From contig CP074575.1 of the NCBI GenBank assembly GCA_018394315.1, positions 2,093,501 through 2,157,500 on the forward strand: DNA of 64,000 nt, read 5' to 3'. The notes beneath the pieces were generated by a model, which had not been told where the DNA came from, made no database searches, and saw nothing but the letters and a program-made list of their open reading frames with translations. How positions within the stretch are numbered: position 1 is the stretch's first letter; each line of letters starts with the position of its first letter. The translations under genes and the position numbers were made by a program. Positions 43,302 to 54,657 of the stretch are shown here, piece by piece. Source of the stretch: Mycoplasmatota bacterium (GTDB taxonomy: Bacteria; Bacillota_I; Bacilli_A; MAG-NZ).

Positions 43302-44288
43302 ATGGAATTGAAAAGACTATTAGAATCAAACTTAACTAAATTGATAGTTCCTCAACAAGAAATACTAGTTGTTAAGGAAAAAGATTCAATCCCTAGCATT
43401 GATAATCCAAAATTTGTCAATGTTAATGAAGCCAAATTATGGCTTGAAGACACAGAGCCAGTGATTACTTTAAATAATAAAGCATATCCTATTCAAATTA
43501 TGATGTGGCATGAAGTTGTCAATGATGGTCATGATGTAGTTAGTTATTGTCCACTATGTAGCAGTTCATTCATTTTTGACAATCAAGATTTAGAATTTGG
43601 AGTTTCCGGACTTTTACGTAACTCAAACTTGATTATGTATGATCGTGATACAAAATCCTTATGGCAACAGTTTTCTGGTTTTTCTATAGGGGGAGAAAAA
43701 GCATCGAACAGATTAATGTTTAAGCCCGCATCTGTGGTGTCATTTAAAGATTTTTATGAAACCTATCCAAATGGCTTAGTGCTTTCAAGAAATACCGGAT
43801 ATGAAAGAAACTACGGTGCAACACCTTACGTTAAGTATGATGACATCTCTAATACCCCAAGTCTATTTATTGGTACACTAGACAATAGACTACCTCCAAT
43901 GACCATAATACTAGGGGTTGGTAACAAAGCCTATACTTACAATCTACTTAGAAATAAAAGAGTCTCATATGATAAAATAAATAATACTGACTATGTAATA
44001 TTCTATAAGTTAGGAACAAATTCAGCATTAGATACACCTTTCATTAAAAATGGAAAAGACGTTGGTGCCACTGGAGTCTTTATCCCAAAGATAAATAATC
44101 AAGTATTAACTTTTAGACATCAAAATGGATACTTTATAGACTCAGAAACCAATAGTACATGGACAGTTTTAGGAAAAGCAATTGATGGGAAACTCAAAGG
44201 AAGTCAGCTAACTCCAGTAATCCACGCAGATGTATTTTGGTTCCCATGGGCAGCATTCTATCCTAATACCGAGTTGATAACTAACTAA
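43302..44288 (+). CDS. DUF3179-domain protein
   Basis: A 328-residue protein matching DUF3179: NKAYPIQIMMWHEVVND, the Cys motif SYCPLCSSSFIFD near residue 85, GLLRNSNLIMYDRDTKSLWQQFSG and a C-terminal DSETNSTWTVLGKAIDG and HADVFWFPWAAFYP. Function unknown; the Cys-His pattern suggests a metal or redox site. No signal peptide is apparent here. Ribosome site GGTGATAAG. Confidence 0.88.
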   Translation: MELKRLLESNLTKLIVPQQEILVVKEKDSIPSIDNPKFVNVNEAKLWLEDTEPVITLNNKAYPIQIMMWHEVVNDGHDVVSYCPLCSSSFIFDNQDLEFGVSGLLRNSNLIMYDRDTKSLWQQFSGFSIGGEKASNRLMFKPASVVSFKDFYETYPNGLVLSRNTGYERNYGATPYVKYDDISNTPSLFIGTLDNRLPPMTIILGVGNKAYTYNLLRNKRVSYDKINNTDYVIFYKLGTNSALDTPFIKNGKDVGATGVFIPKINNQVLTFRHQNGYFIDSETNSTWTVLGKAIDGKLKGSQLTPVIHADVFWFPWAAFYPNTELITN

Positions 44289-48129: not shown

Positions 48130-49344
48130 TTACCTTGTTTTTCTTTCTTTCACTAATTGAATAAATCCAACAGGATTAACTAACTTAGTTCGATTCACAT
48201 TATATGCGCTCTCTAGCATCATATCATTCATTTTAAAAACATCAATATTAGGATCTACTTGTAATGCCATTGCAGCTAAAGACACTTGAACTGGCGTTGT
48301 CCAACTGGTACCACCCCTATTCCAATATGTATAATGATCATCCATAGAAGAATTACCAAGAGTATATGTAGTAGGGAAAGTGACTCTATCAGTACCATTA
48401 AAAATAGGTTCGTAATTTTCTGGATTATCTCTATCTAGATATGGTTTAATTAATGCAACACCATTGTCTGCAAAAAACACTACCATCCCGTTATCATTTG
48501 CAGCTTCTACAGCTTCTCTAAAATCAGATATGTTTGACTCACTTGGATCTGGATTGTCAGAAAATCCAATTATTTTAATTTTTCCATCTTCGGGTAATGT
48601 TTCATTTATCTCAATTACCTTATATATAGCTTCACTGTGACTCTTTTGATCACGGAGATAAGCTGGATGACCTATAAAATATAGGTTAACATCAGGTGCT
48701 GCTCCCACCTTATCACCTACAATAAGATTAGCAACACTAATGCCGTGCATTGAAGTTCCATAATCTATTGCATTATTATAATCAATCCATTCATAATGGA
48801 TATTTTTACCCTGAATTGACTCGTGTGATTCTCTTAAATCTTGATCAATATACGCAATATTAACTCCCTTACCTGTTATTCCCTGCTCATGTAAAGAAGT
48901 AATACCTAAGACAGGACTTCTCCCCCATTCAAGTACTGTCTTTGGATCAAATTCCTCTGGCATATACTCACTGCTAGGAAACCTATCATTACTATGAATA
49001 GTAAAATTTAACAAGTTATCTAGTGAATCCCTAAAATCATAATCTGTAAAATCATTCCTAGCTTTATATCTAAACTCAGAAGGAACCAAATCATTCCCGT
49101 CTAAAGTAGGACCATACTCTTCTTCAGTCACATCTGAATCCTCTATTAGGCTACTTTCTTCTTGTTCTTCATCAATTACAGTTTCTTCTGTTGTAGACTC
49201 TTCTTTTACAGTTTCTTCCTCAATATTTGATTTATCTGTTTCTTTTTCTAGTGTTTCAGGACTATTAATTTCACTTACTTGCTCGCATCCTGCAGTGTTA
49301 ATAACCATTATAACCAATATAATTAATATAATTAATTTTCTCAT
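48130..49344 (-). CDS. Subtilisin-like (S8) serine protease lipoprotein
   Basis: A 404-residue lipoprotein: lipobox NTAGC (Cys20), an acidic Glu/Thr linker to ~residue 75, then an S8 domain. The triad is Asp167 (NIAYIDQDL), His200 (GTSMHGISVANL) and Ser347 (GGTSWTTPVQVS), with oxyanion Asn294 in FADNG. The domain is divergent but all catalytic residues are present. It acts outside the membrane. The start is ATG 49344 after AAGGAGG. Its downstream end is shared with the mini-element terminator. A larger paralogue lies directly upstream. Confidence 0.88.
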   Translation of the reverse strand: MRKLIILIILVIMVINTAGCEQVSEINSPETLEKETDKSNIEEETVKEESTTEETVIDEEQEESSLIEDSDVTEEEYGPTLDGNDLVPSEFRYKARNDFTDYDFRDSLDNLLNFTIHSNDRFPSSEYMPEEFDPKTVLEWGRSPVLGITSLHEQGITGKGVNIAYIDQDLRESHESIQGKNIHYEWIDYNNAIDYGTSMHGISVANLIVGDKVGAAPDVNLYFIGHPAYLRDQKSHSEAIYKVIEINETLPEDGKIKIIGFSDNPDPSESNISDFREAVEAANDNGMVVFFADNGVALIKPYLDRDNPENYEPIFNGTDRVTFPTTYTLGNSSMDDHYTYWNRGGTSWTTPVQVSLAAMALQVDPNIDVFKMNDMMLESAYNVNRTKLVNPVGFIQLVKERKTR

Positions 49345-49479
49345 AATACCCTCCTTTGGTATCAAAATATTTGAATCATCTAATTATCTATAGAAATTAT
49401 ACTTAACATGAACTTTTTTTATAGATCATGATAAAAGTTTTTATTAATATTGGAGCATAATAGGGGGAACACCTAACTG

Positions 49480-51903
49480 TTATTTAAGTAGATTATGTAA
49501 GGGTGATTCATCAGTTACTGTTATATTGTTAACTTTATCTTTACTAGAAACTTCTAATAAGCCTAAGTAGTGGAATGCAAGCGAATTATTAAGATTGAAT
49601 TGATAATTACCTTCAGAAAGATATCTATTAGCCAAACTATTTGAAATATATATTCTTTTTGCATTCATAAAACTTTCACTCCATGATAAATTATGAAGAT
49701 AAATACCTTTCATAGTCCCATAGAATAATGATACTCCATTATTTCCCTTTAACTCATTCAAAGGTGCATAAACATCTATACCACTATTTGATGTGATATA
49801 TGAAGAAGCAATTACATTGATTGCTTTACCCTCACTAAGCATTAGTTGAGTAATGTTTTCGTCATTTAATTGAGCTGCACCCCAACAATCCCAAAGGAAC
49901 AAATTAAAATAGTTATTGTCTAAATATCTATTTACATTAATGTTATTTAAGAAAGACTTCCTAACTTCTATTTCTCCACTTGTGCCTATAAAATACGCAT
50001 TATCAATGTTATCAAATTGACCGTGCGAATTAATAACAAAATTGACTATTCCTTGTTCATTCTCATACTCAATGTTCTCAGGCTCAAATCCACCTAGAAC
50101 AGGATTAGATACCGGATAGTTACCTTTTAAATTCCCATACAACTTATAATCATCATCTGACAAAATTCCAAAATACTTATCTAGTCTTAAGATGAAAGTT
50201 CCTAAATCATCTAGGTGTTTACGACTAGCAAAGATCGGATTAGAAAAGCTAACTAGAGGTAATCTCTTATTATTTGTTAATTCCTTATATTCTAAGTATC
50301 TATTGTAATAGTCGCATATTTCTCCTTCACCTAATGGTAATCTCGCTAGATCCCATTCAGGATAAAAGTTTATATCGATTTCATTTTCTTCAAAGATAGT
50401 ATACATACTTAAGTTCTTATCAATTTTACTAGCATCATTTTTAAAGTTAGAATAAAAATGGTCCGTGTAGATAGTACCATAATCATGAATACCATATTCA
50501 TCCATATTTACCTTATCATGAATCATAAACGTGGGTACTTCCTCCCTTGATCCAAATATTTGAATTCCTTTTAGAATCAAATTCGTATTGGTATTCACTT
50601 TCTCTAAATAAGAAAGGATGCCCTGCGCTGTGTCAAAGTTCTTGACATCTATGATTTTAACATCTGTTTCATCATTAATTAGGGATTTACTATAGTCATT
50701 AATTGCTTCCAAGTCCATGGTATTTGCAAAAAGACTATTATAAAGAAGAACATAGTAATACTGACTTTCCGCTTTATTATTCTTTACTAAATCTATAAAT
50801 CCTTTTGGGTTTATAAGTTTATTACCATCGATGTTATACGCTGATTTAAGCATTAACTCTTCGATACTAAATGGATCTAAGTTAGGATTAACTTGTAACG
50901 CAAGCGCAGCTAAACCAACTTGTACAGGTGTTGTCCAACTTGTATCACCACTTTCCCAAAATGTATAGTGTCTATCAGAGTCGGTATTTCCTGTTACATA
51001 TGTGGTCGGGAATGCTAATTTATCCGATTTATGATAACTATTGAATTCGTAGTTGCTAGGCTCATCCCTATCCAAGGATTCTTTTATAGTTACTATATCA
51101 TTGTTTGCAAAGAACACCACTATACCATTTTCATTGGCAACCTCTACAGCTTCCTCAAATGCATCCTTATTTAATTCACTATCATCAATATTATCAGAGA
51201 AACCTATTACTCTTATTTTTTCATCCAAAGCTAAGGTATCATTTATTTCCAACACTTTATAAATTGCCTTTGCATGAGTCCATTGATCCATTAAAAATGT
51301 TGGGTGAGCAATATAATAAAGATTAACCTCAGGTGCCGCTCCAAACAGTAGATCTGTAACAGCAATCCCATGCATTGAGTTCCATAAGTCGATTTCACTG
51401 TTGCTTATAGTTACATAATCATAATATAAGCTTTTATCATCTAAAGCTTCATGGCTAATTCTTAATGGTTGATCTATATATGCAACACTAACTCCTCTCC
51501 CAGTAACACCTTCATTATGTAAATTTCTTATTCCTAAAACAGGCTGCCTTCCCCATTCAAGTAAAGTAGTACGATGTTCCTCATCATTTATTGGTAAATA
51601 AGAAAATCCTCCATCCTCTGAAGTTGAATTAAATTGATCCAACTTTAAACCGACTTGTTCTGTTTCGGTAATCTCATCTTGCTGAGTTTTTTCTTTTACT
51701 TCATCATCTTCTTTATTTGAACCATCAGAATCTTCTTGATTATTTTCATCTTTTGCAGTATCCAAGTCATCTTCATCGTCATAACTCTCATTATTTAAAT
51801 CTTCTGTCATCTCCACCACTTCCTCTTTATAATAAGAATCTTTACATCCTGTTAAGGTTAAGAAATTACTTAAAATAATAATGATGATTAGTAATTTTTT
51901 CAT
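49480..51903 (-). CDS. Lipoprotein fusing S8 subtilase to a C25 gingipain-like domain
   Basis: An 807-residue lipoprotein (lipobox LTLTGC, Cys20). After an acidic linker comes an S8 domain (residues ~105-378) paralogous to the neighbouring gene: Asp144 (VAYIDQPL), His178 (NSMHGIAV), Ser322 (GDTSWTTPVQVG). Residues ~385-790 form a second protease-like domain with clan CD features: WDLARLPLGEGE, catalytic His627 in FVINSHGQ and Cys673 in LFLWDCWGA, as in C25 gingipains and caspase-like folds. Both active sites look intact. ATG after AAGGAG. The cysteine domain was assigned from motifs. Confidence 0.8.
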   Translation of the reverse strand: MKKLLIIIIILSNFLTLTGCKDSYYKEEVVEMTEDLNNESYDDEDDLDTAKDENNQEDSDGSNKEDDEVKEKTQQDEITETEQVGLKLDQFNSTSEDGGFSYLPINDEEHRTTLLEWGRQPVLGIRNLHNEGVTGRGVSVAYIDQPLRISHEALDDKSLYYDYVTISNSEIDLWNSMHGIAVTDLLFGAAPEVNLYYIAHPTFLMDQWTHAKAIYKVLEINDTLALDEKIRVIGFSDNIDDSELNKDAFEEAVEVANENGIVVFFANNDIVTIKESLDRDEPSNYEFNSYHKSDKLAFPTTYVTGNTDSDRHYTFWESGDTSWTTPVQVGLAALALQVNPNLDPFSIEELMLKSAYNIDGNKLINPKGFIDLVKNNKAESQYYYVLLYNSLFANTMDLEAINDYSKSLINDETDVKIIDVKNFDTAQGILSYLEKVNTNTNLILKGIQIFGSREEVPTFMIHDKVNMDEYGIHDYGTIYTDHFYSNFKNDASKIDKNLSMYTIFEENEIDINFYPEWDLARLPLGEGEICDYYNRYLEYKELTNNKRLPLVSFSNPIFASRKHLDDLGTFILRLDKYFGILSDDDYKLYGNLKGNYPVSNPVLGGFEPENIEYENEQGIVNFVINSHGQFDNIDNAYFIGTSGEIEVRKSFLNNINVNRYLDNNYFNLFLWDCWGAAQLNDENITQLMLSEGKAINVIASSYITSNSGIDVYAPLNELKGNNGVSLFYGTMKGIYLHNLSWSESFMNAKRIYISNSLANRYLSEGNYQFNLNNSLAFHYLGLLEVSSKDKVNNITVTDESPLHNLLK

Positions 51904-52072: not shown

Positions 52073-52891
52073 TTACATATCTTCCAATTTCTTGCTAAAG
52101 AAGAATTCAGGATCACGTTTCACAAGCACGAATGCTACACCGAATAATACCAACGTAAGAATACACTTACTTACTTGATTAGCTTCAAAAATCTCTGAAG
52201 TAAAATTAACAAATACGTGGAATACTGCAACCAATAAGATACTTCTTTTATTTTTATAATATAACCAGTTCATTATAAATACTAACGGAATTATCCCTAC
52301 AAAGAAGTTAATTGCGTAGATTGGATTCATTATCCAAAGTGAAGTTTGATAAGACCCTTCAATAAAGAATACTGGTAAATGCCATAACCCCCATATTAAT
52401 CCAAAGATAATACTAGTTCTAAACAGATTATTTTTATGCATGATGCTATCTACACCATAACCTCTCCAACCCAATTCTTCAAGTATAGGTACTAACGCTA
52501 GAATTATTACACTAAGAATCATCTCTCCATCGAAAACTTTAAATTCTTGTGCAAATGTAAGTTGTTCAATAGGTTGTCCAAATATAACTGAAATCAATAT
52601 AGATACAATCATACCAATTGGTAAAATCAATAATGTAAATGGTAAGTATCTAATATTTATAAGTTTTACGTTAACCAACCTTCTGCGAAAATCTTTGAAT
52701 AGTCCTTTTTCTCTTAAAATCGCAAATATAATTAATGCTGCGATAAATGGTCCCATGTATGCTAATAACAAAACAATCATATTCTTCGATCCTGAATTGT
52801 GACTTTGATATGCTAATATAAATCCATTTATCCATGTGATTGCAAAAGCTAAACCAAAGTATAATAGTGTACGATATTTATGTCCCTTCAT
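52073..52891 (-). CDS. CPBP-family intramembrane metalloprotease
   Basis: A 272-residue protein with about eight helices. EExxxR motif in PILEELGWRGYGVDSI near residue 140, histidine motif in GLWGLWHLPVFFIEGSY and terminal FHVFVNF. Four bp downstream of the TetR gene, in one operon, so it is probably the regulated target. Third CPBP gene in this window. Confidence 0.87.
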   Translation of the reverse strand: MKGHKYRTLLYFGLAFAITWINGFILAYQSHNSGSKNMIVLLLAYMGPFIAALIIFAILREKGLFKDFRRRLVNVKLINIRYLPFTLLILPIGMIVSILISVIFGQPIEQLTFAQEFKVFDGEMILSVIILALVPILEELGWRGYGVDSIMHKNNLFRTSIIFGLIWGLWHLPVFFIEGSYQTSLWIMNPIYAINFFVGIIPLVFIMNWLYYKNKRSILLVAVFHVFVNFTSEIFEANQVSKCILTLVLFGVAFVLVKRDPEFFFSKKLEDM

Positions 52892-52895
52892 TTTT

Positions 52896-53504
52896 TTACC
52901 TCTCTCCTAATAATATATTTTCTTCTAAGCCAAATACTCTTTCAATAATTTTGATCATTGTAATGCTTTTACTTACAATTTCTTCCTCAGTCCAACCAAA
53001 TAAACTTTCATCTAAGAAAAACTGTGCTCCAGTAAGAAGAAATTGTATTGTATCAAGTACGTTATTTACTTTAAATGTACCTTCTTCAACACCGTCACTA
53101 ACAATTGATGCGATTATAGGTGATAGTTTCATCACAATAGCTACATTCATTTTTTCGTGTAATAATCTATTTGATGGTAAATGAAGAATATCCGCTGCCT
53201 TTTGAGTATCCTTATTATTAATTTTATCACCACGCAGTAAAGTAGAAAATTTTTCTATTGGTGATAAATGTGGTGATTTTGCCAATTCGTCAGCAGATTT
53301 CAATACATTCTCTAAAGTTGTCTCTACAATTGCTTCAATTATGTCCTCTTTGGATTTAAAGTAGTAATAGAAAGTACCCTTTGCTACCCCAGCTTCTATT
53401 GTAATATCTTCGACTGTAGTTTCATTGTACCCCTTTGTTTCAAAAAGCATCTTAGCTGAATGAATTATCTCAAATCTTCTTTCTTCAGGCTTCTTTTTTT
53501 TGAT
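52896..53504 (-). CDS. TetR-family repressor with probable AUC start
   Basis: A TetR regulator of 202 residues from the proposed start. HTH at residues ~25-45 (TTVEDITIEAGVAKGTFYYYFKSKEDI), ligand-binding helices after that. The GTG at 53513 shares its G with the AAGGAG ribosome site and cannot use it, whereas an in-frame ATC at 53504 sits 8 nt downstream and gives a typical start MKKKKPEERRFEI. It likely represses itself and the CPBP gene through the palindrome upstream. Confidence 0.85.
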   Translation of the reverse strand: MKKKKPEERRFEIIHSAKMLFETKGYNETTVEDITIEAGVAKGTFYYYFKSKEDIIEAIVETTLENVLKSADELAKSPHLSPIEKFSTLLRGDKINNKDTQKAADILHLPSNRLLHEKMNVAIVMKLSPIIASIVSDGVEEGTFKVNNVLDTIQFLLTGAQFFLDESLFGWTEEEIVSKSITMIKIIERVFGLEENILLGER

Positions 53505-53523
53505 AGTAATCACTCCTTGCGAT

Positions 53524-53817: not shown

Positions 53818-54657
53818 CTATAGCCTTCCAACTAATGAAGTCAGGTGGTTCACAGTACTTATAATTTCTTTTTTTAAAAATTCGTTTGTATTTATTGAAT
53901 TCTCAACCTCTACATCTCGCTTTAGTAAACCAAAATTTCCCCAACTTGGTGAGAATGGTTTATAAGGCTTGTGTCCTGGTTTATGATCCCAGTGCGGTAT
54001 ATATGGTTTATATGGCTTATGGTCCGGTTTGTGGTCATCCCAGTGTGGTATTGGCACATGATGTGGTTTATGATTGTGTTCGTGATCATCCCAATAAGGA
54101 ATATATGGTGTATATGGTTCATGATCGTGTGTGTGATCATTCCAATCAGGAATATAAGGTGTATATGGTTCTGGTGCTGGGACGGGAGTTGGTTCAGGTA
54201 TTGGAATTACATCAGGCTTTGGTGGTTCTGGTTTTGGTTTTGGTTTCCATTCTCCATCATCATCTTTAAAGTACTCAGTACAATCCCATTCCTCCATACC
54301 TTCAAAAATCTTATTTAGAGAAATATCAATTCCTTTTGAATAATTACTTCCAAGATGCATACTTGCACTAAAAACTCTATCTATCACACATTGACAAGTT
54401 TCATATCTCAACTTATCTATTCCCCAGTTGATAATTGGTTTAACCTTTAACAATGTTTCATTTTTAACTTCAGGATTCATCTCATTCCATCCTTCAGTCT
54501 TTAGATATTTATTGCCACTAAATTTGTACCAACTAAAATATCCAGCTACTGCAGCTCTTTTAATTAATTCCTCACACGGTAATACACCAAGATAATCATA
54601 TATTGATATCGGATGATAAAACATAAACTGCTTATCTTTACGGTATTGAGTTTTCAA
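53818..54657 (-). CDS. His/Pro/Tyr-rich repeat protein
   Basis: A 279-residue protein. Residues 1-130 are a compact helical domain with three cysteines (LPCEELIKRAA, ETCQCVIDRVF). Residues ~137-235 are low complexity: a PKPEPPKP spacer, then repeats of PYxPYIPxWDDHxHxHKP-type units (about five), rich in His, Pro, Trp and Tyr. A helical C-terminus follows. The repeat could bind metal ions. TTG start behind AAGGAGAG. There is no signal peptide. A coat-like role is a guess. Confidence 0.75.
   Translation of the reverse strand: MKTQYRKDKQFMFYHPISIYDYLGVLPCEELIKRAAVAGYFSWYKFSGNKYLKTEGWNEMNPEVKNETLLKVKPIINWGIDKLRYETCQCVIDRVFSASMHLGSNYSKGIDISLNKIFEGMEEWDCTEYFKDDDGEWKPKPKPEPPKPDVIPIPEPTPVPAPEPYTPYIPDWNDHTHDHEPYTPYIPYWDDHEHNHKPHHVPIPHWDDHKPDHKPYKPYIPHWDHKPGHKPYKPFSPSWGNFGLLKRDVEVENSINTNEFLKKEIISTVNHLTSLVGRL

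Follow-up and report, generated by a model that had tools for sequence, protein, structure and literature searches.

A predicted surface lipoprotein that joins a divergent subtilase domain to a gingipain-like domain

The window, by which we mean the whole 64,000-nucleotide stretch of DNA analysed here, encodes on its reverse strand an 807-residue protein that probably acts on extracellular protein as a two-protease surface protein. In this protein a divergent serine protease domain of the S8 (subtilase) type is followed by a domain whose predicted fold resembles that of gingipain R, a cysteine peptidase of family C25 in clan CD. Catalysis by both domains, their specificity and the surface location are predictions, and the arrangement that fits the data best would be one exported, surface-tethered chain with two protease domains that differ in catalytic type, the second using a His627/Cys673 dyad. 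Its most likely use would be to degrade or process extracellular proteins or peptides, with the two domains cutting complementary sites. Fold comparison supports the C-terminal domain as a divergent branch of a known fold that is missed by the libraries searched, and in the papers searched we found no description of a fusion between a subtilase and a gingipain-like domain (S8 plus C25).

The two-domain gene corresponds to the open reading frame at 49480..51903 (minus strand, as are all features of this protein), which starts with ATG and is preceded by a GGAG ribosome-binding-like site. No second gene of the S8 plus C25-like type is present in the 2.17-Mb genome. The product is composed of a signal peptide with lipobox, an acidic linker, the S8 domain and the C25-like domain. 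The signal peptide (residues 1–20, 51844..51903), read by eye, ends in the lipobox L-T-G-C20, and based on this we predict that the protein is a lipoprotein, presumably located at the cell surface. The acidic low-complexity linker (residues 21–108, 51580..51843) is recognised by its D/E-rich composition, with 33 D/E vs 7 K/R across the 90 residues 21–110; it would keep both catalytic units off the membrane lipid anchor. Besides C20, the only cysteines are C530, which is not conserved, and C673.

Upstream of the protease gene, two adjacent genes on the same strand (52073-52891 and 52896-53513, minus strand) encode a CAAX-type membrane protease (Rce1-like, PF02517) and a TetR regulator. The product of 53818-54657 (minus strand) carries a long repeat tail rich in proline, histidine and tyrosine, of the PYTPYIPxWDDHxHDHKP type, which is possibly metal-binding and has no Pfam match, and the gene at 43302-44288 (plus strand) encodes a clear DUF3179 protein (PF11376, 283 bits).

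The S8 domain spans residues of about 109–378 (50770..51579). It matches PF00082 over residues 135–356 with 23.7 bits, above the curated cut-off of 21.8, and its best PDB sequence match is aqualysin-1 (E 0.0039), so that its nearest solved relatives are aqualysin-like subtilases; the padloc and PHROGs matches were to generic subtilase or protease models only. The catalytic residues correspond to Asp144 (YIDQ, 51472..51474), His178 (SMHG, 51370..51372) and Ser322 (DTSW, 50938..50940). They occur in the Asp-His-Ser order of subtilases (PF00082, MEROPS S8), with an SxxxP core around the serine, and are invariant in the five two-domain proteins and in all eight S8 sequences seen, which bears out the intact triad described in the initial annotation. 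Canonical S8 motifs are D[ST]G, HGTxVAG and GTSMA[TS]P. In contrast, the window protein and its relatives feature IDQP, MHG[IPQ] and [TQL]SW, with DQP replacing D[ST]G and SW replacing SM at the serine of the window protein. This S8 domain also differs from typical subtilases in lacking a recognisable I9 propeptide and in being followed by a second predicted peptidase domain. The window protein and several relatives have an oxyanion asparagine where one is expected, whereas its position is unclear in the homologue L009.

These departures raise the alternative that the protein contains a pseudoenzyme domain that binds substrate or serves as a scaffold, in which case the S8 domain would be the likelier candidate. 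The atypical motifs, the unclear oxyanion position in L009 and small deletions in this S8 domain relative to that of a neighbouring S8-only paralogue are all compatible with such a loss of function. However, retention of the aspartate, histidine and serine in 8/8 S8 sequences argues against it, and a mere scaffold would not be expected to have an S8-only paralogue kept next door; we therefore regard a pseudoenzyme as fairly unlikely.

The C-terminal domain is about 400 residues long (residues of about 382–785, 49549..50760) and escapes sequence-based detection. Residues 375–807 gave no match in Pfam, NCBIfam, PHROGs, padloc or PDB sequences, and a PDB search with a profile of the domain was likewise negative. 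The motifs listed by the initial annotation in this half are present, namely the sequence WDLARLPLGEGE beginning at residue 517 (WDLAR), SHG with His627 (50023..50025) and WDC with Cys673 (49885..49887). His627 and Cys673, the candidate catalytic residues, are invariant in all five proteins that share the domain, which argues against a chance occurrence, and Cys673 is the sole conserved cysteine of the domain.

Because AlphaFold2 performed poorly on the single sequence (pLDDT 34), the prediction was redone with homologues, using a five-sequence alignment of the C-terminal domain, and residues 375–807 were used for fold comparison. The resulting model (pTM 0.71, mean pLDDT 62) shows an alternating alpha/beta fold. 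Its confidence is limited by the small alignment, by the much poorer scores of the other four of the five models (49 and below) and by active-site loops with pLDDT below about 50. Four strands (8–14, 39–45, 69–76 and 144–148 in domain numbering) precede the catalytic subdomain. In the second alternating alpha/beta unit, strand 246–252 leads directly into His253 (H627) and strand 291–298 into Cys299 (C673). In this model of moderate confidence the domain thus shows the features of clan CD, a caspase-like alpha/beta fold with histidine and cysteine ending consecutive strands. The order of His627 and Cys673 that had been proposed from the sequence is reproduced, and the prediction, although of low confidence in these loops, gave no sign against a single active site.

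Comparison of this model with the PDB by Foldseek returned RgpB chains (1cvr, 4ief) as its top three matches, with E-values of 1.7e-5 to 2.7e-4 and a probability of 1.00; the TM-score to RgpB was, however, only about 0.47 and the identity only 12–13%. According to a review of clan CD structures (PMC4357240), RgpB is composed of a four-strand N-terminal subdomain and a caspase-like subdomain, whose third strand ends at the histidine and whose fourth ends at the cysteine. The layout of our model matches this description, including the four-strand subdomain ahead of the catalytic one, and is thus in agreement with the C25 fold. The C-terminal domain might instead be a non-peptidase alpha/beta domain, for instance a periplasmic-binding-protein-like or receptor-like ligand-binding domain, as no profile calls it a peptidase and the Foldseek matches from rank 4 downwards are periplasmic-binding-like folds. 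Among the PDB matches listed, however, those other than RgpB reach a probability of at most 0.47, and the periplasmic-binding-like folds have TM-scores below 0.3. An invariant His-Gly and a cysteine after consecutive strands would also be unexpected in a binding protein, and no non-peptidase profile matched the domain either. Taken together, we consider a ligand-binding domain very improbable, and the model supports a C25-like fold for this domain.

Membership of family C25 was a different matter at the level of sequence. None of the five members, nor their profile consensus, matched PF01364 up to E 10. For direct comparison we used three C25-type proteins, two from Clostridia with real PF01364 matches and a plasmid-encoded relative of one of these; neither hhalign nor HMMER gave a significant alignment of the window domain with any of them. 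A lenient alignment of the window domain's profile with those of two C25-type proteins was colinear along the domain, pairing cysteine with cysteine and histidine with histidine within one residue, and a home-made profile-profile score was higher than in any of 300 column permutations (Z about 5). When real proteins served as controls, first rank went to just one of the three C25-type sequences, and we therefore regard the sequence evidence for C25 as weak. The absence of a PF01364 match together with the RgpB-like fold places the domain in a C25-like branch of clan CD rather than in the family by sequence; accordingly, the gingipain-like assignment of the initial annotation holds for the fold, but not for family membership.

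Among the clostridial Pfam-C25 proteins, P0009 (L022) shares with the window domain the motif series of a strand ending in G then P, Y.[DS]..Y.[DN] and R[LI], as well as a histidine and then a cysteine after a hydrophobic strand. In contrast with the window protein, neither P0009 nor the protein of L021 has an S8 domain, and hhalign with the window profile was not significant. At L022:904-2325 and L023:2327-5581 we encountered a variant of C25 in which His-Gly is replaced by His-Ser-Ser or His-Ala and the cysteine lies in FNCSS; its hosts are a clostridial genome and a Salipiger plasmid, and the Salipiger copy is joined to RTX repeats.

The comparison with RgpB also offers a tentative view of specificity. 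In RgpB, Asp163 on the first helix of the catalytic subdomain binds the P1 arginine (PMC4357240). The five homologues share an invariant Asp565-Asp566 pair (50206..50211) at the start of the corresponding helix, and these residues are candidates for a basic-P1 pocket. Their placement, about where RgpB has Asp163, suggests by analogy that the cysteine domain may prefer a basic residue at P1, which we offer as a reasonable guess. Further likenesses include an extracellular location, predicted for the window protein, and the Ig-like domain of RgpB, which recalls the extra C-terminal sequence resembling beta-sandwich repeats in the homologues L009–L011. In one of these, an apparent beta-sandwich repeat (FNPPNADIV...KGLNTYYFEIS) that the window protein lacks occurs at least twice in the tail at L010:3100-3714. 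RgpB is, however, a type IX secretion cargo, whereas the proteins described here are Firmicutes lipoproteins, SLH-anchored or secreted proteins, and the position held by the prodomain in gingipain is taken by an S8 domain ahead of the window domain.

This last difference would allow an intramolecular cascade, in which the S8 domain takes the role of the gingipain prodomain, keeps the C25-like domain latent and then cleaves either this domain or the linker, leading to its activation or release from the surface. RgpB indeed has a large N-terminal inhibitory prodomain that is proteolytically removed (PMC4357240); the S8 domain holds the prodomain position in all five homologues with a fixed domain order, and a gingipain-type prodomain was not seen in the two-domain proteins. 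Yet we identified no conserved cleavage motif between the two domains, and the segment joining them is just a few residues long in the window protein, although longer in L010 and L011. Activation of one domain by the other, also raised in the initial annotation, is speculative, and on balance such a cascade appears rather unlikely. A broader version, in which the serine protease domain inhibits and then activates the attached gingipain-like domain, and in which the latter represents a new clan CD family that has moved between sparse Firmicutes lineages by gene transfer, is speculative and we hold it to be distinctly unlikely. We favour two domains that would each act on extracellular protein.

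Scanning about 85,000 species genomes with short peptide patterns, an approach that may miss distant members, we identified four relatives of the C-terminal domain. They are 34–55% identical to the window protein over this domain, and their overall identity to its C-terminal domain is 35–53%. All four carry an S8 domain in front, so that the same domain order recurs in four other species. They originate from an Eubacteriales MAG (L008), a Clostridiaceae MAG (L009) and two Erysipelotrichaceae MAGs (L010 and L011), of which L010 is from cattle duodenum. The mode of anchoring differs, with S-layer homology (SLH) domains at the N-terminus of L008, a plain signal peptide in L009 and a lipobox in L010, and by these features all are predicted to be extracellular. 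Both domains are similarly conserved in the nearest two-domain homologue (S8 50%, C-terminal domain 53% identical). Samples of the class, of the phylum and of the neighbours of each homologue's genome yielded no further members, which together with the four relatives indicates a rare and scattered family. Nothing supported an origin from phages or mobile elements, as no relative was detected in phage, plasmid and viral collections, nor in a viral fold search. At the Erysipelotrichaceae locus, the product of the gene upstream of the homologue (L010:2-688) resembles, as judged by eye, a cysteine peptidase of the C39-like kind, so that this cluster might contain a third protease.

The next gene downstream of the two-domain gene (48130..49344, minus strand) encodes the tandem S8-only paralogue of 404 residues, which matches PF00082 with 35.2 bits and has no C25-like domain. 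An ATG at 49344 is its preferred start, and the listed TTG at 49365 is less likely. The paralogue is 56% identical to the 807-residue protein over 281 residues, in accordance with the duplication proposed earlier; between the gain and loss of a domain that had both been entertained, the tree of S8 domains favours loss. In this tree the paralogue groups with the S8 domain of the two-domain L008 (59% identity, support 84/85), the long window protein is sister to this pair, and S8-only relatives of the same class (L004, L005) lie further away. Because the paralogue groups with a two-domain protein, domain loss after duplication is simpler than gain by the long gene, and based on this moderately supported placement the paralogue probably lost its C25-like domain after duplication.

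An S8 and a gingipain-like domain, both with intact catalytic residues, are paired in five species, which points to a two-protease machine that has been conserved. It is unusual for a single chain to combine proteases that are unrelated in fold and in chemistry, and as the pairing is conserved in five species, mutual control of the two domains is directly testable. The predicted fold would also extend gingipain-like folds to surface proteins of Firmicutes that go undetected with current profile libraries, a gap that matters for protease counts in gut and environmental bacteria.
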